Source of the DNA: Vibrio ishigakensis
Lineage (GTDB): Bacteria; Pseudomonadota; Gammaproteobacteria; Enterobacterales; Vibrionaceae
Assembly: GCF_024347675.1 (NCBI RefSeq)
Contig: NZ_AP024881.1
Span: forward strand, 806,001 to 870,000
Reading direction: 5' to 3'
Length of the DNA: 64,000 nucleotides
Below the pieces are notes generated by a model that worked only from the letters and a program-made list of their open reading frames with translations, was not told the DNA's origin and searched no databases. This document shows positions 17,057 through 55,875 of this stretch, piece after piece (the stretch's first letter is position 1; the number at the start of each line of letters is the position of its first letter). The position numbers and the translations under genes were made by a program.

Positions 17057-17164
17057 TCTGTTGTCACCTCATCCACTAATGACGAATACCATCCTGCCTA
17101 GCGCAGTTTGGAGATGACTCGCTCAGCTCTAAAATCCAGCTGTTTTGGATTTTGGAGCATTAAC

Positions 17165-17800
17165 ATGAGCGAACTTATTATTGAGGCCATTACTGTTCTG
17201 GGTACGGCAGCCTTTGCTTTATCTGCAGTTTTAGCGGCACTTAACAAGAGAGTCGATATCTTCTCTGTCATGGTATTGGGGATCGTCACTGCAGTCGGTG
17301 GTGGCACCATACGTGATTGTATTCTAAACGTGTCGGTATTCTGGTCCCAAGAGATCTCTTATATTACCATCGCCTGCATCGCCAGTATCTCGGGGTTTTT
17401 CTTATTTCCCCTTTTAAAGATGAGTTTGATTAACAAGCTCTATCTCTATATCGATGCCCTAGCTATCGCCATGTTCGGCATACAGGGTACAGAAAAGGCG
17501 TGGTCTCTTGGCTTTGGGCTGCCATTGGCGCCAGCCATCTTGGGGGTGATTACCGCCGTCGGTGGCGGTGTAGTGCGAGACAACCTTCTGCAAAGGCCAT
17601 CACTTCTGCTTAGCAAGGAGCTCTATGCCATTCCGGTAGCACTTGGCTGTTTCTTGCATAGCCTGTTCCTATACTTTGCGCCTGAGCACTCTTATGTCAG
17701 TGCGCTCTTGTGTGCAGCGCTGGTGGTATACCTTAGACATCTCTCTATTCAAAAAAACGTCACAGTGCCTCAGTGGGCTATGCTCAATCGTGATGAATAG
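17165..17800 (+). CDS. TRIC-domain cation channel family protein (UPF0126)
   Basis: This 211-residue inner-membrane protein has two tandem copies of the TRIC/UPF0126 unit, each with three hydrophobic helices and the signature glycine loop: VTAVGGGTIRD near residue 40 and ITAVGGGVVRD near residue 128. Prokaryotic TRIC proteins form trimeric K+/Na+ channels. I chose ATG 17165, which has GGAG seven bases upstream; an earlier in-frame start exists at 17108 but adds a non-conserved leader. Terminator follows directly. Confidence 0.85.
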   Translation: MSELIIEAITVLGTAAFALSAVLAALNKRVDIFSVMVLGIVTAVGGGTIRDCILNVSVFWSQEISYITIACIASISGFFLFPLLKMSLINKLYLYIDALAIAMFGIQGTEKAWSLGFGLPLAPAILGVITAVGGGVVRDNLLQRPSLLLSKELYAIPVALGCFLHSLFLYFAPEHSYVSALLCAALVVYLRHLSIQKNVTVPQWAMLNRDE

Positions 17801-17861: not shown

Positions 17862-17884
17862 TATGACGAACTCTATCCGTCATA
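17862..17884. promoter_or_regulatory. Palindrome TATGACG-N9-CGTCATA, probable LysR operator
   Basis: The perfect inverted repeat lies 72 bp before the Ntn-hydrolase start. The same repeat with the same 9 bp spacer, and the same trailing TCGAA, recurs at 20248-20272 before the outer-membrane barrel gene. The LysR gene between the two targets is the natural candidate regulator. Confidence 0.65.
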
Positions 17885-17955
17885 TCGAATTGTTTGTAGG
17901 GCAATGCCAACACATATACTGGCCTCGATTTAAACAACAGACATCAGAGGTCACC

Positions 17956-19122
17956 ATGACACTTTCTAAACTAAACCAATTTGAAAACGGCACCTTGTTT
18001 GAGACTGAGCAAGAGATGCTTTATGTACTGCAACTAAACGGCAGTTGGTATGAGATGGGCCGCCAATACGGCGCGCTAAGCAAAGAGCCTATGCAGGCGA
18101 TGTACGATAAGATCGTTCAGCCAGAATTTGATAACGGGCTTATCTCCCAAGAAGAGGCGTTTGAGCTATTTGGCCGACGCGTATTTAAGTCTCTTTCTCT
18201 GCGTCGTAAACAGTATTTCCAAGGTGTAGCGGATGGCCTAGGTTGGCCTTTGGAAAAGGTAGTGGTTCTAGACCAAAGTGGTCCAATGGCTATCTATCTT
18301 GGCAAGCTTCACTCTTTCTCTGGCTGTACTTCGCTAACGACCTGGGGCGAGAACACACAACAAGGTCACACCTTAGTAGGTCGTAATATGGATTGGTCTG
18401 AGATCTTCCTAGATTTCCCAATCTTTGTAACCGTGTATAACCCAACCGATGGCTCAAACAGCGTAGTGAACGTGAGCTGGCCAGGTTGGCAGTGGTTGGT
18501 GACTGGCTTTAATGACAAAGGCGTATACACAGACCTTCACGACGGTACCTCTATGGGCGGTAATATTGTCTCCATTGAGAAGCCATCGTTCCTTAATTCA
18601 GTGTTTGATTTTATCTCGGAAAGTGATGATATTCAGGCGCTCAGTGCGCGTTTCCAAGCTGCGAAGACTGATGTTGCTGCCATCTGGATGCTAGCAGACA
18701 AAGGCCATGCGTGTGCTTATGAGAACACCATTCAAGAGAACCGCTTGCGCGTTGCAGACAAAGGCGCACAGTCCTTTATTACGGTGAACACCTTCCTAAA
18801 TCCAGATTGGGGTTTGGGCCGACGTGAAACCCAGAGTTTTTCACTAAAACGCTTCGACAACCTCGCGGCTCGCCATGCTGAAAAGGCTGGAGATCTTAAC
18901 ACTGAGGTGATGCGCGATATCTTTGATATTCCTCTTTACAACCAAGATGGTAGCTTCAAGGAAAATGGCGGCGTAACCAAGCCAACAAACCAAGATGTAG
19001 ATCTGACTAACTATCAGGTTGTGACTGACCTAGACGAGCAGCAGCTTTGGGTAAAACTGCCTGCGCTAGAGGGTGACTGGGCACATATTGATGTGAGAGC
19101 GCTGTTTGAACAGAAGGCTTAA
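17956..19122 (+). CDS. C45/choloylglycine-like Ntn hydrolase
   Basis: This 388-residue protein has the GCTS motif (G123-C124-T-S) followed by TTWGENTQQGHTLVGRNMDWSE, the arrangement of autoproteolytic cysteine Ntn-hydrolases such as isopenicillin-N acyltransferase (peptidase family C45), acid ceramidase-like and choloylglycine hydrolase-like enzymes: cleavage before Cys would expose it as the N-terminal nucleophile. The family hydrolyses linear amides. No signal peptide is visible, so it may act in the cytoplasm. I chose ATG 17956 (AGAGG upstream); a longer frame from 17863 begins inside the palindrome. Substrate unknown; N-acyl amino compounds are possible. Confidence 0.75.
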   Translation: MTLSKLNQFENGTLFETEQEMLYVLQLNGSWYEMGRQYGALSKEPMQAMYDKIVQPEFDNGLISQEEAFELFGRRVFKSLSLRRKQYFQGVADGLGWPLEKVVVLDQSGPMAIYLGKLHSFSGCTSLTTWGENTQQGHTLVGRNMDWSEIFLDFPIFVTVYNPTDGSNSVVNVSWPGWQWLVTGFNDKGVYTDLHDGTSMGGNIVSIEKPSFLNSVFDFISESDDIQALSARFQAAKTDVAAIWMLADKGHACAYENTIQENRLRVADKGAQSFITVNTFLNPDWGLGRRETQSFSLKRFDNLAARHAEKAGDLNTEVMRDIFDIPLYNQDGSFKENGGVTKPTNQDVDLTNYQVVTDLDEQQLWVKLPALEGDWAHIDVRALFEQKA

Positions 19123-19145
19123 TACAGTGGAGGGCATGGAAGCCC

Positions 19146-20057
19146 TTAGTCCACCTGTAGAGAGCGAAAGTGCGCTATATAGTCATCAACCGCTTTAATA
19201 ATTGATTTCTTCACAGTAAGAACCTGCTTTGAATGAGGGTTCCATAGAGCAAAAGAGAACTTGAAGCTCGCCTTCAGCTCCTTGACCTCGATAGGCTCCA
19301 GATGCTCGGTAATATAGGGAGATTCTGACAACACTCTCGGAAGCCAGGCCCACCCGAGATCAGACTGGATAAGTTTGATCGCAAGAGATAGCTGATCCAC
19401 CTCTTCGTTATCAGCAGAAACCACCACCTTTTCTTTTAATCCATCGTGAGTAAACGCCCTAAGCACAAATTGGCGTGTGGTTCGCAGCGCTCGTAATGCT
19501 TCGTCCTCCGGCAAGCCCGATAATGCGCCGCCTTTTTTTACGAAGGGTAAGAACTCCATATGCCCAAGGAAGGTAGAATCCTTGCCATACATACCTTTTC
19601 CTTTATCGATATTAACTAAACCAAAGTGTACATCTCCAGAATCCAATCCTTCTTGTACCTGCGCTTTATTCATCACTAAGAAATTGACCTTCATGTTCGG
19701 AAAATCTTGCGCCAATTGCTCACGAATCAGTGCCAGTAGTCCGTGTGGGGTGACACTTGAATAGCCAATATTGACCCCTTCTAAGGTTCCGTAGGCGAGG
19801 CTTAAAGCAATTTTGTCAAAGATGTTCGATTGGTCGATTACCGACTTGGCGTAGTGATAAAGAAGCTCTCCTTCCTCGGTAGGGATAACCGAGCGACCGA
19901 CGCGATCAAACAGCTCAACAGCGAGGATATCCTCGAGATTGGCAATTACCTGCCCTGTAGTAGTCCTATGTTTATTTAGCTTCGCCGCTGCACGGCTGAA
20001 AGACTGCTCTTCATAGACGGTGACAAATGCAGATAGCTGCTCGATGCTGAAACTCAT
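19146..20057 (-). CDS. LysR family transcriptional regulator
   Basis: This 303-residue protein has a canonical LysR HTH (SIEQLSAFVTVYEEQSFSRAAAKLNKHRTTTGQVIANLEDILAVELFDR) and an effector domain from about residue 90. The recognition helix is unusual in having KHRTTTGQ. It is convergent with the Ntn-hydrolase gene (23 bp) and divergent from the outer-membrane barrel gene. Both of these have the palindrome ATGACG-N9-CGTCAT upstream, so I infer that this protein controls both and perhaps itself. Confidence 0.85.
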   Translation of the reverse strand: MSFSIEQLSAFVTVYEEQSFSRAAAKLNKHRTTTGQVIANLEDILAVELFDRVGRSVIPTEEGELLYHYAKSVIDQSNIFDKIALSLAYGTLEGVNIGYSSVTPHGLLALIREQLAQDFPNMKVNFLVMNKAQVQEGLDSGDVHFGLVNIDKGKGMYGKDSTFLGHMEFLPFVKKGGALSGLPEDEALRALRTTRQFVLRAFTHDGLKEKVVVSADNEEVDQLSLAIKLIQSDLGWAWLPRVLSESPYITEHLEPIEVKELKASFKFSFALWNPHSKQVLTVKKSIIKAVDDYIAHFRSLQVD

Positions 20058-20247
20058 ATTAGATCATCCAACTCATTGATTTTTCGCTCAGTTTTAACAC
20101 TAACACTTATATGTAGAAATGCCAGAACCCGCTCGTTTAACCAGCTAGGTTCCACTTCTATTTGCGTTTTTATTTTAGACTTTTAGATCTCTGATTCACT
20201 CATTTTCGCTTTAGTAATTGTCGTGCTTATTCTTTCAAATTCACTAT

Positions 20248-20272
20248 ATATGACGGATGTGGCTCGTCATAT
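20248..20272. promoter_or_regulatory. Palindrome ATATGACG-N9-CGTCATAT, probable LysR operator
   Basis: An 8 bp perfect inverted repeat with a 9 bp spacer lies in the divergent region between the LysR gene and the barrel gene. Apart from this it adds little else in 20058-20384. See the matching site at 17862-17884. Confidence 0.65.
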
Positions 20273-20384
20273 CGAAGTTCGAGTTTTTTCAGTAGTAGTT
20301 GAGAATGACCGCGTTAAGGAAGCAACAGAACTCAGGTTCATTTGTACAGGGGGTGCAATATACAAACACATATAGGTAATCAAA

Positions 20385-21128
20385 ATGAAAAAACTCACGC
20401 AATTAACGCTGATACTGTCAGCACTTGGGATGGCTACGCCTGCAATGGCTGAAGAGTCAGAACCGAATCCATCAGATCTTACTGAGACTAGCACCTCCGC
20501 ATATTTCGGTTTGAATAATCAGGGCAGCCTAAAGGGCTCTATCTCTGGAGACTTCAACTTTAGTGACAAGCAGACCGGTATGCTGACTATCGAGGGCACT
20601 ATGGACCGTGATGGTCATTACTCTGATAGTCGATTGCAATATTTCCATGTGTTCTCGACCACCAACCGCGTCGTACCAAGGGCGGCAGTATCGTTAGATA
20701 TTATCGACAACGACATGTTTACCTCTGCATCTCTAGGGGGCGTTTTGGCGATTAACCCAGGTGTTGATGGCTTGCAGATCTTTCCTCGAGTGGGTGTACT
20801 TGCAGGTGAATACTCTGACGCATCGGTTACGGCATTCGATGCTCAAGACAGCGAGGCATATGGTGTGTCCGGTGCACTTTATATGATGTACACCATAGGT
20901 AAAGACGGCACCTATATCGGCGCTTGGCCTGAATACAACTACCTCGATGGTGATATAGAAACGTCGCTCTTGAAATCAACCGTCATGATTGCCACTCCAT
21001 TCTCCAAAGATAAGACTCGCTGGGGCCAGCTTAGAATCGATAACACCTCTGGTTACATGAAGACTAGCCAACAATCTTTAGATATCGATGACACCGTGGT
21101 GTGGGCGAACTACAAGTTCTATTTTTAA
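20385..21128 (+). CDS. Putative outer-membrane beta-barrel protein
   Basis: This 247-residue protein has a clear Sec signal peptide (MKKLTQLTLILSALGMATPAMA, then EESEP) and the rest alternates polar and hydrophobic residues in short strands, ending with VVWANYKFYF, a C-terminal Phe typical of BAM substrates. No named family is recognised; LQIFPRVG resembles WQIFPMAG in the barrel protein at 31042-31830, so the two may be distant paralogues. It follows the LysR-associated palindrome and may supply outer-membrane passage for the substrate of the neighbouring hydrolase. Confidence 0.65.
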   Translation: MKKLTQLTLILSALGMATPAMAEESEPNPSDLTETSTSAYFGLNNQGSLKGSISGDFNFSDKQTGMLTIEGTMDRDGHYSDSRLQYFHVFSTTNRVVPRAAVSLDIIDNDMFTSASLGGVLAINPGVDGLQIFPRVGVLAGEYSDASVTAFDAQDSEAYGVSGALYMMYTIGKDGTYIGAWPEYNYLDGDIETSLLKSTVMIATPFSKDKTRWGQLRIDNTSGYMKTSQQSLDIDDTVVWANYKFYF

Positions 21129-21186: not shown

Positions 21187-23898
21187 TTACTCTACGCAGT
21201 TCCAGGAACCTGCATCGATTGAGTTGATCCAGTCTCGAATAAGGGCAACCCCTTCTTTATGAACCACATGACGACCTAGCTCTGGCATCATGTTGCCGTT
21301 ATCAACATTGATGCGGTAGTGAAGCACTGAGTTGTCTGCATCTCCCGGTACGATTACGTAAGGTGATGGCCCTTTGTGGAAGGTGATGCCTCGAGCACAG
21401 ATACCCATCTGGTCGATGCCGTCTCTCCAGTATTCAAATTTGAATGGGTTACTGGCTGCTTTACCCTCGGTGCGGTGACAGTGAGCACAGTTAACATCTA
21501 GGTACGCCTTCGCATAATCAAGGAGCTCATCATCGGTTAGATTGCTCGCACCAGACTCCGTGTCAAACACAGGGGTCTTAGGCAGGTTCTCCGGTGTATT
21601 TGGCAGAGCCGCGTTGAATAGGCCTAGGGTTTCCCAGTGGGTCAGTTGGTTGGAACCACTCACTGTTGCTTGTACGCTATTAAGGTTGCGAGTCTTAGGC
21701 CCGATTGGTGAGAAGCCTTTTGGTTGTGTGCTTCCCACAGGGTCAGCAACATCGGCTTCCACCTTGTGGCATAGGGTACATTCGTTACGGCTCGGCACCT
21801 CGTAGGTGAAGCTTAGTGTCTCTCCATCGTGAACAATGCTACGCTCGAACGGAACCGATACTGCAGTTAATTGCGCGTCAGTTTTATCCTCGTTCCATAC
21901 ATAAGGCAGTGCCACCCAACCACTGGTGCGATGGATCAATAGACGAGTCTCGATGAGCTCTTCATTTTGACCGCGAGCGTTGGTGGTATTGCTTGGCAAC
22001 ACAAAGGTTTTGATGAGCACTGTGCCAACAGGGAAATCAAACACCTCTTGTTCACGATAACCCGCAGAAACGCCGTCTGGCATAACTACAAAGCGGTATT
22101 TGCGAGAATAATCCGTAAATAGCTCAACGTTCATCTCATACAAAGTTCCTTTCGCTGACGCATCTAGGTTCAGGTTCTGGGTTGGGTCTTTCGCGTCCTT
22201 GAACAGATTGTAGTGAGACAAACTGGTGCAGTTTTCACCATATGATGCGCTCTCACGGGTAATTGCATCCCAGTTAATGCCGTTTACATCTGTGGTACAC
22301 AGGTCATTACCGACTATGCCGTTAGGGATGTTTGGTGTATTGGAAGCTGAGTCGTCTTGTTCCTCTTGGTTGATGCCATATTCCACTCCATTGATGGTGA
22401 CAGTGTTTGGCTCAAGAGAAACCTTAGAGTCACAGCCTGCAGTGAGCAGTGTTTTTTGCTCTTGTTCAAACAGGAAGTCGGCATTAGCGCTATTCTCGGC
22501 ATAGCGCAGGATTCCCATTGGATCAGTGTTGTCGACGAGAACACCCACACTAGCGCCATTGTTTACCAAGCAGTTGCTGTCTTGTTCGGTGAAGTTAGTC
22601 AGGTAATCCCAGTTGTTGCTTTGGGTCATGCCATTTAAAGCATCACGAAGGGGAGCAAACATCTGAGAGCGAATCAAGGACTCACCCGCGCCGTCGTAGA
22701 ACATGGCAGGGAAGGCTTGATGCTCTAGGGTATAAGCAAGGATCATATCCTCAATCAAAGAGCCGTTAGGGTTGGCTCCGACATTGGTGACCTTGTTGTC
22801 GTGTAGATACATATTGGTTGGAACTGGGTTCCAGCCGTTCATTACTGCGTTGCCCTCAGAAGTACCATTAAGTGGACTGTAGGCCTCAGGGTTATCATTT
22901 ACTAGCAGATAACTAGTCATCGCCAGCGCCATCGAGTCGTGATTTTCTATAGTGTTATTAAAGAACTCACTGTTGCGACCAGAGAGTACAACAATACCCG
23001 TACCCGGTGGCACGATGCCGACCACGCCACAGCCTCCAAGTCCATTTTCACAGGTAGTATCGACATAGTTCACTAGGTTGTTGTCACGAATAACGTTGTC
23101 GAACACGCGCACGTCATCAATCAAACGGCCTATGGTGGTTGCTCCTGGAAGGTCAAACAGCAACACGCCACCTGTGTTACCTATCGCTAGGTTTTGGTAC
23201 ACATCCACATTGGAGCTGTTCTCAATCTCGATACCGGCAATGTTCTTCTCGGCAACGTTTCGGCGAATTACTGCACCTATGGTTTGGCCTACATAGATAC
23301 CCGCATCGGCACTGCCGTAGGACCAAGTATCCTCAATCAAGACATTCTGCGATTTAACCGGATAAATACCATAGGTGCCGCGAAGGTTACCGTTCTCATC
23401 GCGCGCCCGGGGAACCTCCATCCACACCGTTGAGACGTCACGCATTATGATGCCTTCAACGCCATCGGCTTTGATGCCGTTCTTAGAGGCTTCGGCCACC
23501 TGCAGGTCTTCAATTGTGATGTTAGAGCCACCACTGATGGCAATGCCGTCTTTACCGTCGACATTACTAAAGTCGAGATAGGTTTTATCTATGCCCGCAC
23601 CGCGAAGAACTAGGTTGTTTTTGGAGTCGATGGTGAGCTGATTATTCATTTTAAAACAGCCAGCAGGTAGAGTAACTACGCTGTTATCCTCGGCAAGTTC
23701 CACCAGATTCTCAATGGCAGTAACTTCTTCTGGGCTGGCCCATTCTTGGCCATCACCGCACATAACCGGTTCGCCATAGCTGGAGAGCTCATAGCTGGTG
23801 GAGGTATTGGGTTCGTCATAGTCCTCGCTATTACAGGCCACTAGCATTGCGGAGCTGATGGCGGTAGCGATAACCGTTTTGTAAATTCCATTCATCAT
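21187..23898 (-). CDS. Lipoprotein fusing a parallel beta-helix to a diheme cytochrome-like domain
   Basis: This 903-residue protein has a lipoprotein signal (AISSAMLVAC; Cys22 followed by Asn-Ser, so probably outer membrane). Residues about 60-430 are a right-handed parallel beta-helix with repeats such as GSNITIEDLQVAEASKNGIKAD and GAVIRRNVAEKNIAGIEIENSS. The C-terminal half (about 560-903) has two c-type heme motifs, CTLCH (707-711) and CAHCH (804-808). In other bacteria I recall these as two adjacent gene families (TIGR03805 beta-helix and TIGR03806/SO2930-type cytochrome); here they are one reading frame. It is probably cotranscribed with the FadL gene 40 bp upstream. Function unknown; periplasmic or surface oxidation of a hydrophobic or polymeric substrate is only a guess. 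Confidence 0.8.
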   Translation of the reverse strand: MMNGIYKTVIATAISSAMLVACNSEDYDEPNTSTSYELSSYGEPVMCGDGQEWASPEEVTAIENLVELAEDNSVVTLPAGCFKMNNQLTIDSKNNLVLRGAGIDKTYLDFSNVDGKDGIAISGGSNITIEDLQVAEASKNGIKADGVEGIIMRDVSTVWMEVPRARDENGNLRGTYGIYPVKSQNVLIEDTWSYGSADAGIYVGQTIGAVIRRNVAEKNIAGIEIENSSNVDVYQNLAIGNTGGVLLFDLPGATTIGRLIDDVRVFDNVIRDNNLVNYVDTTCENGLGGCGVVGIVPPGTGIVVLSGRNSEFFNNTIENHDSMALAMTSYLLVNDNPEAYSPLNGTSEGNAVMNGWNPVPTNMYLHDNKVTNVGANPNGSLIEDMILAYTLEHQAFPAMFYDGAGESLIRSQMFAPLRDALNGMTQSNNWDYLTNFTEQDSNCLVNNGASVGVLVDNTDPMGILRYAENSANADFLFEQEQKTLLTAGCDSKVSLEPNTVTINGVEYGINQEEQDDSASNTPNIPNGIVGNDLCTTDVNGINWDAITRESASYGENCTSLSHYNLFKDAKDPTQNLNLDASAKGTLYEMNVELFTDYSRKYRFVVMPDGVSAGYREQEVFDFPVGTVLIKTFVLPSNTTNARGQNEELIETRLLIHRTSGWVALPYVWNEDKTDAQLTAVSVPFERSIVHDGETLSFTYEVPSRNECTLCHKVEADVADPVGSTQPKGFSPIGPKTRNLNSVQATVSGSNQLTHWETLGLFNAALPNTPENLPKTPVFDTESGASNLTDDELLDYAKAYLDVNCAHCHRTEGKAASNPFKFEYWRDGIDQMGICARGITFHKGPSPYVIVPGDADNSVLHYRINVDNGNMMPELGRHVVHKEGVALIRDWINSIDAGSWNCVE

Positions 23899-23938: not shown

Positions 23939-25231
23939 CTAAAACGTGTGGTTATATTGGATGCCATATACATAGGCATCACCCTTGGTGCGCAGTGGTA
24001 TGTCCACACCAGGTAAGGAATCCGGCTCTAGTGGTTCAGTGAAGGTATTCTCTTCACCGTTTACGAAGGTAAACCCAAGATCAAGACGGCTGTTTGGAGT
24101 AAAGGCATAGGTTGCCCCCACGCTATAGTTGATGCGGTCTGTATCTGGGAGGCTAATACTTGGGTCATTGACGTTGGGTGTCTCGTCATAAGCGACGCCA
24201 GCACGAAGTGTAAATGCCGAAGTTAGGTTATAGGTAGCGCCGATAGCGTACTTAAACGAGTTGTCGAAGTTCTCGTCTTTTTGCAGCACTTCTTGTCCAT
24301 CAACCGTGGCCTTTAGCTCCTCAAATACATCCCACCCCACCATCATGACGCTGTAGTGAAGGGCGAAACTGTTTGACAGTTGATGGAAACCAGAAAACTC
24401 CGCAATGCTTGGCAGGTTGAGGGTAAGGTCACCAGAGCGAGTTTCCCCAGGCATGATGATGGCGCTAGGTACATCAGAGGTGTAATCGCCATCGAACTCT
24501 ACATCAACCTTGGAGCGATAGCTCAAACCAAATCTGTGGTTCTCATTGATCTCCCAAAGGGCACCGAGGTTGAATCCGTAGCCCCAACCATCGCCACCCA
24601 AAGAGCGAGCGATATCAGAGCGAGCGAAGTTTGTTCCATTCTCAAGGTTGGAGGCATCAGCCAAGATACCTAAGGTGCGCACTACCTTGGCTTTACCATA
24701 GACAACGCTTGCACCAGCGCCGACACTCCACTGATCATTGATTCGATAAGCAATGTTAGGGTTAAAGTTGATGGTCTCGAGAGTGGTTTCTCCACCGATA
24801 GGACCGGCTAAGTAGTCGGCCGGATACTTTGTTGAAAGGCCAAAGTCGGTAAACACAGCCAGCCCCCATGACCAGGATTCATTGATAGGACCTGCCAGAT
24901 AGAAAGAGGGGATGACTACATCATCAACTACATCATTATTGGTTAGCTGATTGTTGAAACTAGCATCAGTAGTGTTACCCGTAGCCTTAACCTCAGCATC
25001 GACATAAGCCGCACCAAGGGATAGCTCATACGAATCGAATCGAGTAATTGCGGCTGCGTTGTGAGCCATAACCGATGAGCCATCGGCTATGGCGGCTTCA
25101 CCGGCATTGGCCCTACCGAGACCAGCGGCTGAATGTTCAGTTAATTGAAACCCAGCAGAGTGAACAGCTGGAGCGCTGAAGGCCATGGTGATGGCCAAAG
25201 AGAGTGCAGTATTTCGTGACTTCAAATCCAC
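23939..25231 (-). CDS. FadL/OmpP1 family outer-membrane transporter
   Basis: This 430-residue protein has a signal peptide ending SAPAVHS and the mature N-terminus AGFQLTEHSAAGLGRANAGEAA, the hallmark of FadL, whose N-terminal hatch plugs a 14-strand barrel for passage of fatty acids and other hydrophobic compounds. The C-terminus ends in YNHTF. I chose GTG 25231, with GGAG seven bases upstream; an earlier in-frame start at 25333 adds residues not expected of a signal peptide. It sits 40 bp upstream of the beta-helix/cytochrome gene and probably forms an operon with it. Confidence 0.88.
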   Translation of the reverse strand: MDLKSRNTALSLAITMAFSAPAVHSAGFQLTEHSAAGLGRANAGEAAIADGSSVMAHNAAAITRFDSYELSLGAAYVDAEVKATGNTTDASFNNQLTNNDVVDDVVIPSFYLAGPINESWSWGLAVFTDFGLSTKYPADYLAGPIGGETTLETINFNPNIAYRINDQWSVGAGASVVYGKAKVVRTLGILADASNLENGTNFARSDIARSLGGDGWGYGFNLGALWEINENHRFGLSYRSKVDVEFDGDYTSDVPSAIIMPGETRSGDLTLNLPSIAEFSGFHQLSNSFALHYSVMMVGWDVFEELKATVDGQEVLQKDENFDNSFKYAIGATYNLTSAFTLRAGVAYDETPNVNDPSISLPDTDRINYSVGATYAFTPNSRLDLGFTFVNGEENTFTEPLEPDSLPGVDIPLRTKGDAYVYGIQYNHTF

Positions 25232-25758
25232 AATGTAACTCCATGTACGACAGTAATGCGTTCTATCCTTAGCGACACTGTTTAAGTGCCCGCACGCCAT
25301 GCTGATTGATGTATCAATAAATATGCGCACCAAGATACATTAGAGTTGTTTAACCTATCTGTAACAAAATGTTCACAAAAGTGTTATGTGAGTCTCATAT
25401 AGATTTGAATGATGTTTTTATGGTTAATTATATGATTTATATGGCTAAATTAGATAAATTAAAACAAGTGTTTATTTTGTAGACCTGTAAACTAATGTGG
25501 TGAAGCACTAGTTTCAAATGTTGCTCATATGTATTCATTGTGTGAATATTTATTATCGAAAGCCCCTGTTTTTATTCGGGATAATAGGTAATTTAGAGTG
25601 ATCCTCCTACCAGTTGTCTATTTTGTATGACAATTGGACGTGATTTATTTCTTCATAGTAAGATGGTGCACCATATAACCATATTATTTTTGTGGTTAAC
25701 TAAGAAGAAAAAGAAAAAAGTTCATCGAAGTGAACACAAGTGTGCCTAGGAGGCTCCC
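25232..25758. promoter_or_regulatory. Divergent control region between fadL-like and formate dehydrogenase genes
   Basis: This 527 bp AT-rich stretch holds no supported gene. Close to the formate dehydrogenase start are a perfect 12 bp palindrome ATGGTGCACCAT (25663-25674) and an inverted repeat TAACCA-N11-TGGTTA (25676-25698). AGGAGG precedes the ATG at 25759. I could not identify a clear FadR, FNR or CRP site. Confidence 0.5.
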
Positions 25759-28700
25759 ATGGTCCAGATTGTGATAGACGGTAAGTATCGAGTAGTGGAA
25801 GAAGGACTGACACTGCTTGAGGCCGCTCAGGTGTGTGGTGTAGAGATCCCCTCTCTTTGCGGCGCAAATAAAACCGACGAGAAAGTTCCCTGTGATCTCT
25901 GCGTTGTAGAGGTTGAAAGTGGCGGTATTCAACGCTCGTGCGAATTAGATGTGTATCAGGGGCTGAGTGTGGTAACTCATTCTGAATATCTTAGCGCACA
26001 TCGAAAGAAAGCCCTCGACCGCATCATGACTGACCACTATGCGGACTGCGAGGCTCCCTGCAAAACGGCGTGTCCAGCTGGTGTCGACATTCAGTCTTAT
26101 CTCTATCACATCTCTCAAAATGATCATCAAAAAGCCATCGAGGTGATCAAACGCACCTTACCTATGCCTCTCTCTATTGGTCGTGTGTGTCCTGCATTCT
26201 GCGAGACAGAATGCCGCCGAGGTTTGGTGGATGACTCGATCGCTATTCGCCAGCTAAAGCGCCATGCAGCGGATGCGGACCTCGAGGCTCAAGAAGCCTA
26301 TATGCCACAGAAAAAAGCCGATAAAAATAAGCACATTGCCATTGTGGGAAGTGGACCGGGTGGATTGACTGCAGGTTATTATCTATCCAATGAGGGCTAT
26401 GAGGTCACTGTATTCGAGTCTATGCCACACGCTGGTGGTTGGCTTCGTTACGGCATCCCTGAATATCGACTGCCTAAGAGCATTCTCGATAAAGAGATAG
26501 AGCTGATGTGCCGTAATGGTATGCAGATCGAGTGTGGCAAAAAGCTGGGGGAGGATATTACTCTTTCTTCGCTCAGTGAGAAGTATGACGCTGTCTGTCT
26601 CGCCGTTGGCGCATCAAAGGCAGTAGAGATGAACTATGCAGGTAGCGACCTAGATGGCTGCTACCTAGGGGTGGATTATCTTAAGGATTATGTCACTGAC
26701 AAAAACTATCTGACCGGTAAAAAGGTCGCAGTCATAGGTGGCGGTAACACGGCGATTGATTGCGCCCGAACTGCAGTACGTGACGGTGCCGATACTACGC
26801 TTATCTATCGACGTACCCGTGCCGAGATGCCCGCGGAAGACTACGAGATTGAAGAGGCAGAGCACGAGGGAGTTAAGTTTCACTTTTTGACTAACCCTGC
26901 GGAGAATATTGCAGGCAGTGATGGCCGCGTCGAGGCGATTCGTCTTGAGAAGATGGAGCTAGGACCTGCGGATGCCTCTGGTCGACGCAGCCCGAAGGCA
27001 ACCGGTGAGTTCTTTACCGAAGCCTTTGATACAGTGATAGCTGCGGTATCACAAAAACCGGATCTTAGCTTTATGCAAGATGAGCCAGTGGAAATCCCGC
27101 TGACTCGCTGGAATACCGCCGATGTAAACCCTGACACCATGCATACTGGTAGTGGCAATATCTTTAGTATTGGCGATTTTAGGCGTGGTCCTGCGACTGC
27201 AGTTGAGGCGGTCGCCGATGGGCGTGTGGTGGCTGAAGCCATAGACAGATTCTTCGATGGGGATATGGAAAACATTCCAGTCACTCCGTTCAATGCGCGC
27301 AAGGGTAAGGCTCTAAAGCAGGTAGACTCGGCTCAGTTTGAAAACATTCAGAAAGTTGCGCGCAAGCTCATGCCTGAGCTGAGCAGTGCTCAGCGTGAGC
27401 AGAGTTTTGCTGAGGTAGAGCTTGGTTTCGACAATGCTGAAGCTATGGCTGAAGCGGCGAGGTGTCTAGAGTGTGGCTGTCAGGCGAATACTAACTGCGA
27501 CCTACGCGATTATTCTACTGAATATGGTGCAAGCCAGACCAATATAGAGATTAAATCTGATTGTGATTGGCAAGCTATCCGCAACAGTGACACTAGACAA
27601 AAATTCAGTGTAGATAACAGCTCAGAGTTTATCGTGTTTGATGCCAACCGCTGTATCAGCTGTGGTCAGTGCGTGCAGGCGTGTCGTGAACAGTCGGTTC
27701 ATGGCGTGCTGAGCTTTATGAGCAATAAAGATGGCAGACCTGGCTCTAGACCTGAGTGTCGTCCTAGTTTTGGTCCGAATCAAACCTTAATGGGGGATTC
27801 AGCTTGTGTGCAGTGCGGTGCTTGTATTCAGGTCTGCCCCACTGGCGCTATGATGGATGGTCGCGACCGTGCCCAAGGTCGCATCGAAAACCTTAAGGTG
27901 GTGGATACCATCTGCACCTACTGCGGAGTGGGCTGTAAGGTCTCTATGCATGTGGATGAAGATGCTAACCAGATCCGCTACGTGAAGGGAGGCGATTCAC
28001 CGGTCAACGAGGGTATGCTGTGTGTTAAAGGTCGCTTTGGCTTTGATTTCATTGGCAGTGACGAGCGCCTTACGACGCCCCTGATCCGCAAAGACGGTTG
28101 GCTTCAGCCGGCTTCTTGGGAAGAGGCGATAGAGCTGGTGGCAAGCAAGTTCACTTCTATCAAACAAAGCTTTGGTGGTAACGCGCTTGCGGGCTTCTCT
28201 TCGGCTAAAACTACTAACGAAGATAACTATGCCTTCCAGAAGTTTGTTCGCCGAGAGCTAGGTACTAACAATGTCGATCACTGCGCTCGTCTTTGTCACG
28301 CTTCAACTGTAACTGGACTTGAAGCGTCGCTAGGTAGCGGTGCTATGACCAATGACATACCGAGTATAAAGCACTCTGATGTCATCTTTGTTATTGGCTC
28401 TGACACCACAGCGGCACACCCGATCATCGCATCACACATTAAGCAAGCGGTTCGCCATCATGGAGCTAGGCTGATTGTTGCTGACCCTAAGCGTATCGAA
28501 CTGGCTGATCATGCAGAGCTTTATATGGCGCAGCGACCTGGAACTGATGTAATGCTGATAAACGGTGTAATGCAGCAGATCATCAAGAACGGTTGGTATG
28601 ACAGGGAGTATATCGAAGAGCGTGTAGACGGCTTCGATACCTTGCTACAAGAGGTGATGTCTCCAAGCTATGCCCTAGATAAGGTTGAGCTAGTTACAGG

Positions 28701-29946
28701 TATCAAGGCAGAAGATATTTTCGCTATGGCGCGCACCATAGGCACCGCAAAACGCACCGCCGTTTATTATGCGATGGGCATTACCCAGCACACTACGGGT
28801 CACGACAATGTACGCTCTATCGCGAACCTGCAAATGCTGTGCGGTAACATCGGCATTGAGGGGGGCGGTATTAACCCACTGCGTGGTCAGTCGAATGTGC
28901 AAGGCGCGTGTGATATGGGAGCCCTACCGAACAATTTCCCTGGCTATCAAAAGGTCTACAACCCTCTAGTGCATCAGAAGTTTGCCATCGAATGGGATGC
29001 GCCAAATCTACCAACAGAAACGGGCTTAACCCTTACTGAGATTATCGATGCCGCCTGCAAGCGTGAAGTACGTGGCTTGTACGTGATGGGGGAGAACCCA
29101 GTATTGAGCGACCCTGATCAGGCGCACGTGCTAGAAGGGCTAGAGGCGCTAGATTTCTTGGTAGTTCAAGATATCTTCCTCACCGAGACGGCTCAATATG
29201 CCGATGTGGTATTACCCTCATGTTCATTTGCTGAAAAGGCAGGACACTTTACCAATACCGAGCGCCGCGTGCAGAGACTCAACCCTGTGGTTAATCCACC
29301 AGGGGAAGCACGCGAGGATTGGATGATCATCCAAGACATCGCTAAGGCAATGGGTAGCGATTGGGGTTATCGACATGTTAGCGAAATCACCAATGAGATC
29401 ACTCGCGTGACACCTCAGTATGCAGGTCTGAGATGGGAAGCGATCCCTGCGCATGGGATGCAGTGGCCAAGCAACAAGAATAACCCGCAGGGCACACGTA
29501 TCATGCACAAGACCCAGTTCACCCGTGGTCGCGGTCAGATGGAAGCGATCCCCTTTAGGTATGCAGCTGAACTCCCGGACGAAGAATATCCGCTAATCCT
29601 AACCACAGGCCGTATCCTAGAGCAGTTCCACACCGGAACCATGACTCGCAAGACCAAAGGCCTAGATAAACTGGCGGGTCCTCGAGCCATGATAAGCGTG
29701 GCAGATGCAGAAGAGCTAGGTATTGGTAATGGTGATATGCTGACGGTTTCAACCCGCAGGGGTAGTATCGATATCGCCGCCTTTGTGACTAAGCGAATTC
29801 AAACTGGTGTGGTGTTTATTCCATTCCACTTTGTGGAATCACCAGTAAACAGACTGACGAATACTGCGAAAGATCCCCATGCCAAGATACCTGAGTTTAA
29901 GGTGGCTGCGGTTAGGGTAGAGCGGAAAGTTGCTGAACAAGTTTAA
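25759..29946 (+). CDS. Multidomain formate dehydrogenase alpha subunit with GltD-like module
   Basis: This 1395-residue protein combines, in order: an N-terminal [2Fe-2S] ferredoxin-like domain (about 1-80; CGANKTDEKVPCDLC); a GltD/DPYD-type Fe-S domain with CKTACPAGVDIQ and CPAFCETECRRG (about 95-160); an FAD/NAD(P) oxidoreductase module with GSGPGG (from residue 195) and GGGNTAIDCA; two [4Fe-4S] motifs CISCGQCVQAC and CVQCGACIQVC; then a molybdopterin oxidoreductase with CTYCGVGC (719-726) and a Mo-bis-MGD binding C-terminus. The active-site ligand is Cys846 (RLCHAS) in place of selenocysteine. It probably couples formate oxidation directly to NAD(P)+ in the cytoplasm, or works in reverse. 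No separate beta/gamma subunit or FdhD lies nearby. The start has a perfect AGGAGG. Confidence 0.88.
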   Translation: MVQIVIDGKYRVVEEGLTLLEAAQVCGVEIPSLCGANKTDEKVPCDLCVVEVESGGIQRSCELDVYQGLSVVTHSEYLSAHRKKALDRIMTDHYADCEAPCKTACPAGVDIQSYLYHISQNDHQKAIEVIKRTLPMPLSIGRVCPAFCETECRRGLVDDSIAIRQLKRHAADADLEAQEAYMPQKKADKNKHIAIVGSGPGGLTAGYYLSNEGYEVTVFESMPHAGGWLRYGIPEYRLPKSILDKEIELMCRNGMQIECGKKLGEDITLSSLSEKYDAVCLAVGASKAVEMNYAGSDLDGCYLGVDYLKDYVTDKNYLTGKKVAVIGGGNTAIDCARTAVRDGADTTLIYRRTRAEMPAEDYEIEEAEHEGVKFHFLTNPAENIAGSDGRVEAIRLEKMELGPADASGRRSPKATGEFFTEAFDTVIAAVSQKPDLSFMQDEPVEIPLTRWNTADVNPDTMHTGSGNIFSIGDFRRGPATAVEAVADGRVVAEAIDRFFDGDMENIPVTPFNARKGKALKQVDSAQFENIQKVARKLMPELSSAQREQSFAEVELGFDNAEAMAEAARCLECGCQANTNCDLRDYSTEYGASQTNIEIKSDCDWQAIRNSDTRQKFSVDNSSEFIVFDANRCISCGQCVQACREQSVHGVLSFMSNKDGRPGSRPECRPSFGPNQTLMGDSACVQCGACIQVCPTGAMMDGRDRAQGRIENLKVVDTICTYCGVGCKVSMHVDEDANQIRYVKGGDSPVNEGMLCVKGRFGFDFIGSDERLTTPLIRKDGWLQPASWEEAIELVASKFTSIKQSFGGNALAGFSSAKTTNEDNYAFQKFVRRELGTNNVDHCARLCHASTVTGLEASLGSGAMTNDIPSIKHSDVIFVIGSDTTAAHPIIASHIKQAVRHHGARLIVADPKRIELADHAELYMAQRPGTDVMLINGVMQQIIKNGWYDREYIEERVDGFDTLLQEVMSPSYALDKVELVTGIKAEDIFAMARTIGTAKRTAVYYAMGITQHTTGHDNVRSIANLQMLCGNIGIEGGGINPLRGQSNVQGACDMGALPNNFPGYQKVYNPLVHQKFAIEWDAPNLPTETGLTLTEIIDAACKREVRGLYVMGENPVLSDPDQAHVLEGLEALDFLVVQDIFLTETAQYADVVLPSCSFAEKAGHFTNTERRVQRLNPVVNPPGEAREDWMIIQDIAKAMGSDWGYRHVSEITNEITRVTPQYAGLRWEAIPAHGMQWPSNKNNPQGTRIMHKTQFTRGRGQMEAIPFRYAAELPDEEYPLILTTGRILEQFHTGTMTRKTKGLDKLAGPRAMISVADAEELGIGNGDMLTVSTRRGSIDIAAFVTKRIQTGVVFIPFHFVESPVNRLTNTAKDPHAKIPEFKVAAVRVERKVAEQV

Positions 29947-55704: not shown

Positions 55705-55875
55705 ATGCTAGTTCAAACACTTTTAAGAGCGCTATACAATCTAGCCTCAACCATTCTATCTGGCCTATTTGTAGCAGTAGGTACTCTGTTCTATGTAGCG
55801 TTTTTGATGCTGAAGATCGCCTCTATGATGTTGAGACTGCATCATAGGAAGCATCACTATCTTTCACATCAATGA
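55705..55875 (+). CDS. Small single-pass membrane protein, 56 aa
   Basis: The ATG is preceded by a GGGGGA Shine-Dalgarno four bases upstream. The 56-residue peptide has one long hydrophobic segment (LASTILSGLFVAVGTLFYVAFLMLKIA) after a short amphipathic start and ends in a basic, His-rich tail (HHRKHHYLSHQ). I do not know the family. Its separate position, good ribosome site and sensible membrane topology argue for a real gene. Confidence 0.6.
   Translation: MLVQTLLRALYNLASTILSGLFVAVGTLFYVAFLMLKIASMMLRLHHRKHHYLSHQ

Follow-up and report, generated by a model that had tools for sequence, protein, structure and literature searches.

Probable Regulatory Palindromes at the Locus

Do two copies of a rare palindrome standing before two genes around one LysR gene mark a regulon, and if so, what would that regulon do? 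The question arises from a window of 64,000 nt of Vibrio ishigakensis (NZ_AP024881.1, GCF_024347675.1, positions 806,001-870,000; the window is the whole stretch analyzed, and coordinates are window positions), for which a sequence-only reading had claimed that TATGACG-N9-CGTCATA, trailed by TCGAA, precedes an N-terminal nucleophile (Ntn) hydrolase gene and an outer-membrane barrel gene, with a LysR gene between them. Our analysis suggests that the palindromes are probably operators of the LysR protein encoded between them, which would control the hydrolase (family C45), the barrel and targets in trans, likely as an activator, for the uptake and cleavage of acyl amides.

Both palindromes were present. 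Operator 1 (TATGACGAACTCTATCCGTCATA, 17862-17884) and operator 2 (TATGACGGATGTGGCTCGTCATA, 20249-20271) had the same 7-bp arms (TATGACG-N9-CGTCATA), and each was followed by TCGAA. Rarity of the palindrome had been set beforehand as a test of the idea, and these two copies of the exact form were the only ones in the window and in the whole 4,785,997-bp genome, where base composition predicts about 0.02 per genome. The gap between operator 2 and the barrel ATG (20385) was 113 bp, as had been reported, and that between operator 1 and the hydrolase ATG (17956) was 71 bp rather than the reported 72 bp. Operator 2 also lay 191 bp upstream of lysR, which was separated from the divergent barrel gene by 328 bp. 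Operator scores here and below are out of 20, sought within 250 bp upstream of a gene and compared with 50 base-composition shuffles each, whose maxima were 13-15. The features of the locus are as follows:

17078..17100, +: weaker predicted operator AATGACGAATACCATCCTGCCTA in front of the PF03458 gene, whose ATG is 64 bp away; 15/20 (shuffles, at most 14)
17165..17800, +: membrane protein of the PF03458 "Glycine transporter" family (Pfam, 8.1e-37)
17862..17884, +: operator 1, upstream of the hydrolase gene; exact palindrome
17890..17895, +: -35-like TTGTTT directly 3' of operator 1, read from the sequence and conserved in the alignment
17915..17920, +: -10-like TATACT, +31 from operator 1
17956..19122, +: C45-family Ntn hydrolase, 388 aa, nucleophile Cys124 (NF040521, 114.8 bits, cut-off 85)
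19146..20057, -: LysR-type regulator with recognition helix HRTTTGQV (residues 30-37); PF00126 and PF03466
20249..20271, +: operator 2, between LysR and barrel genes, with a geometry that fits a barrel promoter; exact palindrome
20301..20306, +: -10-like GAGAAT (4/6), +30 from operator 2
20385..21128, +: 12-strand outer-membrane-type barrel, 247 aa, with a signal-peptide-like N terminus (AlphaFold2 pLDDT 91)

The element is described more fully as TATGACGGAY-N3-RTCCGTCATA, a dyad of 23 bp whose 10-bp arms flank a 3-bp center; an A-x-T element at +5/+7 and a -10-like box at +30 come after it. The simple N9 pattern was not enriched genome-wide at two or fewer mismatches (11 forward matches vs. 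14 for the reversed-pattern control) and was therefore dropped as a genome-wide test at that stringency.

Recurrence of the Operator in Related Genomes

The sequence-only reading had proposed searching related Vibrio genomes for the palindrome and the three genes. This was done with 196 same-genus genomes, including that of V. ishigakensis (relatives are labeled G001 etc.). A scan of named genomes supplied the organism names V. mexicanus, V. splendidus, V. comitans, V. ulleungensis, Vibrio sp. SCSIO 43135 and others and, outside Vibrio, Shewanella sp. TC10, S. olleyana and two Ferrimonas. The site recurred before the orthologous hydrolase gene and before the barrel gene adjoining LysR. The exact palindrome was found at seven places in five genomes (reversed-pattern control, four places in four genomes), and six of the seven lay in promoters of the regulon: before the C45 gene in V. 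ishigakensis, G001 and G194, before the barrel gene beside a divergent LysR gene in V. ishigakensis and G008, and before a choloylglycine-hydrolase-family gene in G001. The seventh (G176) was inside an open reading frame (ORF).

The letters common to these sites define the extended motif TATGACGGAY-N3-RTCCGTCATA. Allowing up to two mismatches, it occurred at 21 places in 16 genomes (control, 8), of which 11, in seven genomes, were regulon promoters, all in genomes carrying the LysR clade described below. Among the 20 of the 21 places that were examined, one more preceded a barrel homolog (G075) and two were non-coding (G143 and G168). The matches inside ORFs of G011, G018, G040, G176 (acetoacetyl-CoA synthetase by sequence reading), G033, and G013 were rejected as targets. 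By genome, the extended motif was present in 7/13 genomes of the LysR clade vs. 9/183 others, and in six of those nine it fell within ORFs.

Promoter Geometry

The position of the site relative to its promoter was conserved. At the C45 gene, all 14 loci then labeled as LysR-clade scored 14-19, at 71-95 bp before the ATG; the fair count is 14/15, since S. olleyana, labeled as lacking the clade regulator, does have an HRTTTGQV LysR. Scores of at least 14 were also obtained for 10/11 promoters of a secreted amidohydrolase of relatives (74-103 bp), 10/14 barrel promoters (102-127 bp), and 3/4 promoters of choloylglycine-hydrolase-type genes, one of which is 29% like the query. In the alignment of hydrolase promoters, the right arm RTCCGTCATA hardly varied among loci having the clade LysR; GAATTGTT-like bases and then a TATAAT-like box followed it.

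To locate the -10 region, 22 sites were collected, a set without the promoters of lower score (G150 and G106, for example), and the count was made on 19 after omission of the near-copies G005, G133, and G129. The six bases at +30 matched TATAAT in at least four positions in 18/19 sites, compared with a mean of 1.2 and a maximum of 7 at other offsets. The exception was the V. ishigakensis C45 promoter, with its box at +31. Among the non-C45 sites alone, the -10-like hexamer stood at +30 in 11/11 (highest elsewhere, 3). From this 30-bp spacing the operator is predicted to lie at about -64 to -42; the recognition sites of LysR-type transcriptional regulators (LTTRs) are placed at around -65 to -50. 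In its recurrence and its predicted placement, the palindrome behaves as an operator.

Predicted Regulon and Its Proteins

The V. ishigakensis genome was scanned with a composite pattern of the operator and its downstream element (up to three mismatches), which was designed when these sites were already known; its best four places were the promoters of the C45 gene (0 mismatches), an M20 amidohydrolase gene (1), a choloylglycine-hydrolase-family gene (1), and the barrel gene (2). At three mismatches, it matched the PF03458 promoter, the two palindromes read on the other strand, and three unassigned places; the control gave one forward and two reverse matches. The choloylglycine-hydrolase-family and M20 promoters had first been picked from the two-mismatch list of the simple palindrome, which comprised nine V. 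ishigakensis places, five of them fetched. The small regulon claimed earlier thus held as to LysR, barrel, and Ntn hydrolase with a common operator, but not as to its three-gene extent: the regulon is predicted to include also the secreted choloylglycine-hydrolase-family protein and the M20 amidohydrolase, so that amide hydrolases appear over-represented. The PF03458 gene just upstream of the C45 gene, whose promoter has a -10-like TAAAAT at +30 from the weaker operator, probably belongs to it as well. In relatives, the operator additionally precedes the secreted amidohydrolase (PRK09061-type), of which no homolog was found in V. ishigakensis at 1e-30.

The Ntn hydrolase of the earlier reading was assigned to family C45 by NF040521, whereas a Pfam search with the V. 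ishigakensis protein returned no family at 1e-3, including PF03417 (AAT), which some relatives have. In an alignment of 48 sequences, C124 was invariant, G123 was conserved in at least 90%, and R143, N144, and D146 were invariant. The structure was modeled with a predicted local distance difference test (pLDDT) score of 95, no signal peptide was seen in the sequence, and the nearest solved folds were isopenicillin N acyltransferase, acid ceramidase, and NAAA (2x1e, TMq 0.71; 5u84, 0.62; 6dxw, 0.60). The gene was found in 15/196 same-genus genomes, with a split copy in G039 and a fragment in G007; the ORF of G008 is 389 aa and ends in TAG. Only 1/398 genomes, that of V. ishigakensis itself, carried it in a phylum-wide search (E ≤ 1e-60), which marks the gene as rare.

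The barrel called earlier is likewise borne out by the model, which predicts 12 strands with a pLDDT of 91; together with the signal peptide read from the sequence, this points to an outer-membrane porin. Its fold matches were weak (FapF; KdgM 4fqe, TMq 0.53; NanC 2wjq, 0.59; CymA 4d51, 0.46). Neither Pfam nor NCBIfam matched it, and PDB sequence searches with the barrel and with the C45 protein gave no useful match. Barrel homologs at E ≤ 1e-20 were present in 44/196 genomes.

The M20 protein scored 189.8 with TIGR01891 (cut-off, 153.75). The secreted choloylglycine-hydrolase-family protein was identified by PF02275 (107.3 bits) and remained far under the NF038245 and NF058572 cut-offs for bile salt hydrolase and PenV amidase (77.1 of 350 and 62 of 600 bits, respectively). 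A PF03458 gene lay within the fetched C45 flanks at 16/21 loci, including those of Ferrimonas and of a gammaproteobacterial metagenome-assembled genome, whose copy is 41% identical. F. marina and F. balearica have a homologous M20 gene (68%) and PF03458 beside C45, and G001 and G194 have AaeA/FUSC-type exporter genes just upstream of C45.

Linkage of the Operator to One LysR Clade

The LysR protein contained HTH_1 (PF00126, 61.4 bits) at the N-terminus and LysR_substrate (PF03466, 40.5 bits) at the C-terminus, both above cut-off, and none of the NCBIfam matches listed (25 of 49 families) reached its cut-off. At E ≤ 1e-60, 86 matches were found in 61/196 genomes. When the best 45 barrel matches were used, 28 of the 86 had a barrel gene within 8 kb, and all 28 pairs were divergent.

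An HR[TS]TTGQV-type LysR was present in 13 genomes among those checked; the check covered all 30 genomes with loci, G008, and the tree members, with low-identity matches without loci outside it. The C45 gene was present in 12 of these 13 genomes, and 12/15 C45 genomes had the clade LysR. In V. comitans (G106), a distance of 0.6 Mb separates the LysR gene from the C45 gene, and a 14/20 site was still there. Where the C45 gene occurs without the clade LysR, the site score was 12 (G052, F. marina, and G039) or 14 (F. balearica). Because the site goes with one LysR clade and the sister clades carry a sister motif, this LysR protein is most likely the regulator of the palindrome.

Putative Operator Code in Sister Clades

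The sister LysR clades (helix HRTT[IV]..) were associated with a sister motif having other bases at the C-N11-G positions, often T-N11-A. The degenerate dyad TWTGAYGGAY-N3-RTCCRTCAWA (at least 17/20) matched 67 times in 64 LysR-family loci, compared with two matches of the reversed pattern, and 54/67 matches were outside ORFs, where non-ORF sequence makes up 15%. In the 40 loci unseen when the pattern was set, it matched 34 times, 27 of them outside ORFs in 21/40 loci (reversed pattern, 2). At half-site position 6, which was left free, the clade of the V. ishigakensis LysR had C in 20/22 half-sites, whereas of the 72 half-sites of other clades, 34 had T, 32 had A, and 6 had C; many of the sites are orthologous, and locus L075, with helix RTTAS, was omitted. 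The clade, supported at 98/87, contains 15 TG rows and the RTTAS row.

In the alignment, R31-T32-T33-T34-G35-Q36 of the LysR protein corresponded to Q29-P30-P31-L32-S33-R34 of BenM. According to PMC12609908, BenM and CbnR recognize the T of T-n11-A through residue 30, and operator variants T-n10/12/13-A exist among LTTRs. The varying helix residue lies two positions past this base-reading residue, and a role in base choice may be assumed for it. In a more speculative reading, which we hold to be less likely than not, these proteins of Vibrio and its relatives would form a LysR subfamily so far undescribed, in which one substitution in the helix, from Ile/Val to Thr, would have accompanied the change from T-N11-A to C-N11-G. 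This would have split off a regulon that uses as many as four kinds of amidase to import and hydrolyze conjugates of N-acyl amino acids (N-acylglycines, perhaps). Comparing the two types of clade amounts to a natural experiment: it could show how a LysR protein recognizes its signature base pair and how that recognition can change. Near the sister-clade LysR genes at L082, L085, and L087, there are genes that we take to resemble pyridoxal kinase and aspartate aminotransferase/decarboxylase.

A second LysR of the family (57%) is encoded on chromosome 2 (L079, 4214-5188), with the related motif TTTGACGGATGAGATCAGTCTAA nearby at 2558-2580. A sister-type dyad was also seen in the V. ishigakensis genome near an ORF read from its sequence as TamA-like (L206, about 1501-1528). 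TamA-like genes near the clusters of two relatives had dyads of 13-14/20, and a third had one of 11; such genes may be targets of the sister LysR.

Proposed Mechanism and Alternative Explanations

In the mechanism that we propose, the extended motif TATGACGGAY-N3-RTCCGTCATA would be occupied by a LysR dimer (or tetramer). The protein would sit at about -64 to -42 of sigma70-type promoters, adjoining the upstream side of their -35 region, and would most likely activate them once it has bound a ligand. It would thereby control the hydrolase, presumably cytoplasmic, and the neighboring outer-membrane barrel. In trans it would control the choloylglycine-hydrolase-family amidase, presumably periplasmic, and the M20 amidohydrolase; the PF03458 transporter gene is probably a further target. 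The barrel may admit N-acyl amide conjugates, which would be cut in the periplasm and cytoplasm, and the freed amino acid would be moved. Hydrolysis of N-acyl amino-acid conjugates is our best guess at the function, since amide-bond enzymes (C45, choloylglycine-hydrolase family, and M20, with the PRK09061-type enzyme in relatives) appear behind one operator together with a barrel and a PF03458 transporter. The amine part is perhaps glycine, as the Pfam family name suggests. The sequence-only reading had likewise made the barrel a putative entry pore and had named a signal molecule, a lipid amide, or an antibiotic as candidate substrates.

Several observations weigh against the proposed control by LysR. 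The operator has C-N11-G rather than the LysR signature T-N11-A, and the association of base 6 with the helix is confined to one clade and may therefore reflect a single evolutionary event. The genomes are related, so that the counts of co-occurrence and recurrence are not independent. The barrel lacks a site of at least 14 at the usual distance in 4/14 clade loci, and G181, which has the clade LysR, scored 13/20 before the barrel gene and 10/20 before the choloylglycine-hydrolase-type gene. Scores of 14-15 overlap the shuffle maxima, so that weaker sites lean on position and the downstream element. Six of the 21 extended-motif places are inside ORFs, and three carry no assignment. In V. ishigakensis, three unassigned places (C1:2213196, C2:103602, and C2:1317853) tie with the PF03458 site at three mismatches. 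F. balearica has a 14/20 site, yet the only LysR of the family found there is of another clade, and S. olleyana scores 12 at C45 despite an HRTTTGQV LysR elsewhere in its genome (61%).

The departure from T-N11-A and the cases of F. balearica and S. olleyana would suit a different regulator of the palindrome, such as an unlinked TetR-type protein or the quorum-sensing regulator AphA, with LysR a mere neighbor. AphA is a PadR-type regulator. Its box likewise starts with ATATG, and in V. cholerae it represses a penicillin amidase gene (PMC3440409). That box, ATATGCA-N6-TGCATAT, is however 20 bp long and differs from both sites in sequence and spacing, so AphA was rejected by inspection; moreover, AphA is reported from nine Vibrio species in the same paper, whereas the motif is concentrated in LysR-clade genomes, and the same dyad core stands beside the sister LysR clades. 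With part of the other ORFs of the clade loci annotated for regulators, a regulator other than LysR is quite unlikely. It is also very improbable that a mobile or duplicated segment gave rise to both palindromes, which would then not be operators, as two near-identical sites 2.4 kb apart might suggest. Their spacers differ, the sites precede unrelated genes on both chromosomes, and the arms and -10 spacing are kept in relatives; this reading was rejected because the flanks past TCGAA do not match.

If LysR binds the sites, it might still repress its targets until an inducer lifts the repression. The sign of control can be read either way from sequence alone, and the position of operator 2 upstream of lysR leaves room for autoregulation; nevertheless, we regard repression as unlikely, since the predicted site is upstream of -35, where LysR-type activators have their recognition site, and IR1 of CutR, which is essential for target expression, is at -60 (PMC12609908). 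A doubtful alternative concerns function: the C45 and choloylglycine-hydrolase-family proteins could cut acyl-homoserine lactones or penicillins, making this a regulon for quorum quenching or antibiotic removal. Degradation of acyl-homoserine lactones has been reported for Gram-negative penicillin V acylases (PMC5474475 and PMC8066178), and the C45 fold is nearest to isopenicillin N acyltransferase, followed by acid ceramidase and NAAA. The low scores of the choloylglycine-hydrolase-family protein with the bile salt hydrolase and PenV amidase models argue otherwise, and M20, the PF03458 transporter, and the AaeA/FUSC-type exporters and amidohydrolase of relatives point to conjugate catabolism.

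Comparison With Known Systems

PDB sequence relatives of the LysR protein include 8j4n, BenM, CatM, LrhA, and AceR. The LysR-type regulators BenM/CatM, CbnR, AceR, and CutR likewise combine HTH_1 and LysR_substrate with a divergent target and a site around -60, as predicted here; the present system differs from BenM in its helix (R-T-T-T-G-Q vs. Q-P-P-L-S-R) and in having C-N11-G vs. T-N11-A in the operator. The C45 isopenicillin N acyltransferase, acid ceramidase, and NAAA have in common with our hydrolase the fold, the Gly-Cys pair, and the downstream Arg-Asn-x-Asp, but identity with these solved enzymes is 11-15%, and ours is bacterial and encoded beside LysR and a barrel. Porins of the KdgM, NanC, and CymA types are small barrels with a fold like that predicted here, at 6-12% identity and in a different regulon. 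The penicillin amidase gene of V. cholerae resembles the predicted system in that a regulator binding a palindrome controls an amidase gene in a Vibrio, with the AphA box in place of TATGACG-N9-CGTCATA (PMC3440409).

No description of such a system was found among the literature titles listed on Vibrio penicillin V acylase with LysR and on C45-family enzymes. The conserved LysR-linked regulon appears to be real; its composition and operator appear new, and its kind is known. It provides a testable unit of a regulator, an operator with exact promoter geometry, and predicted target promoters, four to five in number and spread over two chromosomes; the enzymes and barrel concerned carry no database annotation beyond "hypothetical" or a family name. 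With this target list, the candidate substrates narrow to small amino compounds in acyl-amide linkage, and, if the reading is true, a so far undescribed pathway for the uptake and cleavage of acyl-amide compounds would be at hand.

Other Observations

A near-palindrome with two mismatches to the operator, TATGATGTTGAGACTGCATCATA, lies at 55824-55846. In four genomes (L008, L106, L109, and L111), the palindrome falls within an ORF whose translation reads as acetoacetyl-CoA synthetase, which was taken as a probable coding coincidence. At 21190-23898 (-) and 23942-25333 (-) are a fusion of a parallel beta-helix domain (TIGR03805) and an SO2930-type diheme cytochrome c domain (TIGR03806) and, adjoining it, a FadL homolog. 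From its translation, the 1395-aa ORF at 25759-29946 (+) resembles a fusion in which a glutamate-synthase-small-subunit-like portion is joined to a formate-dehydrogenase-like one.

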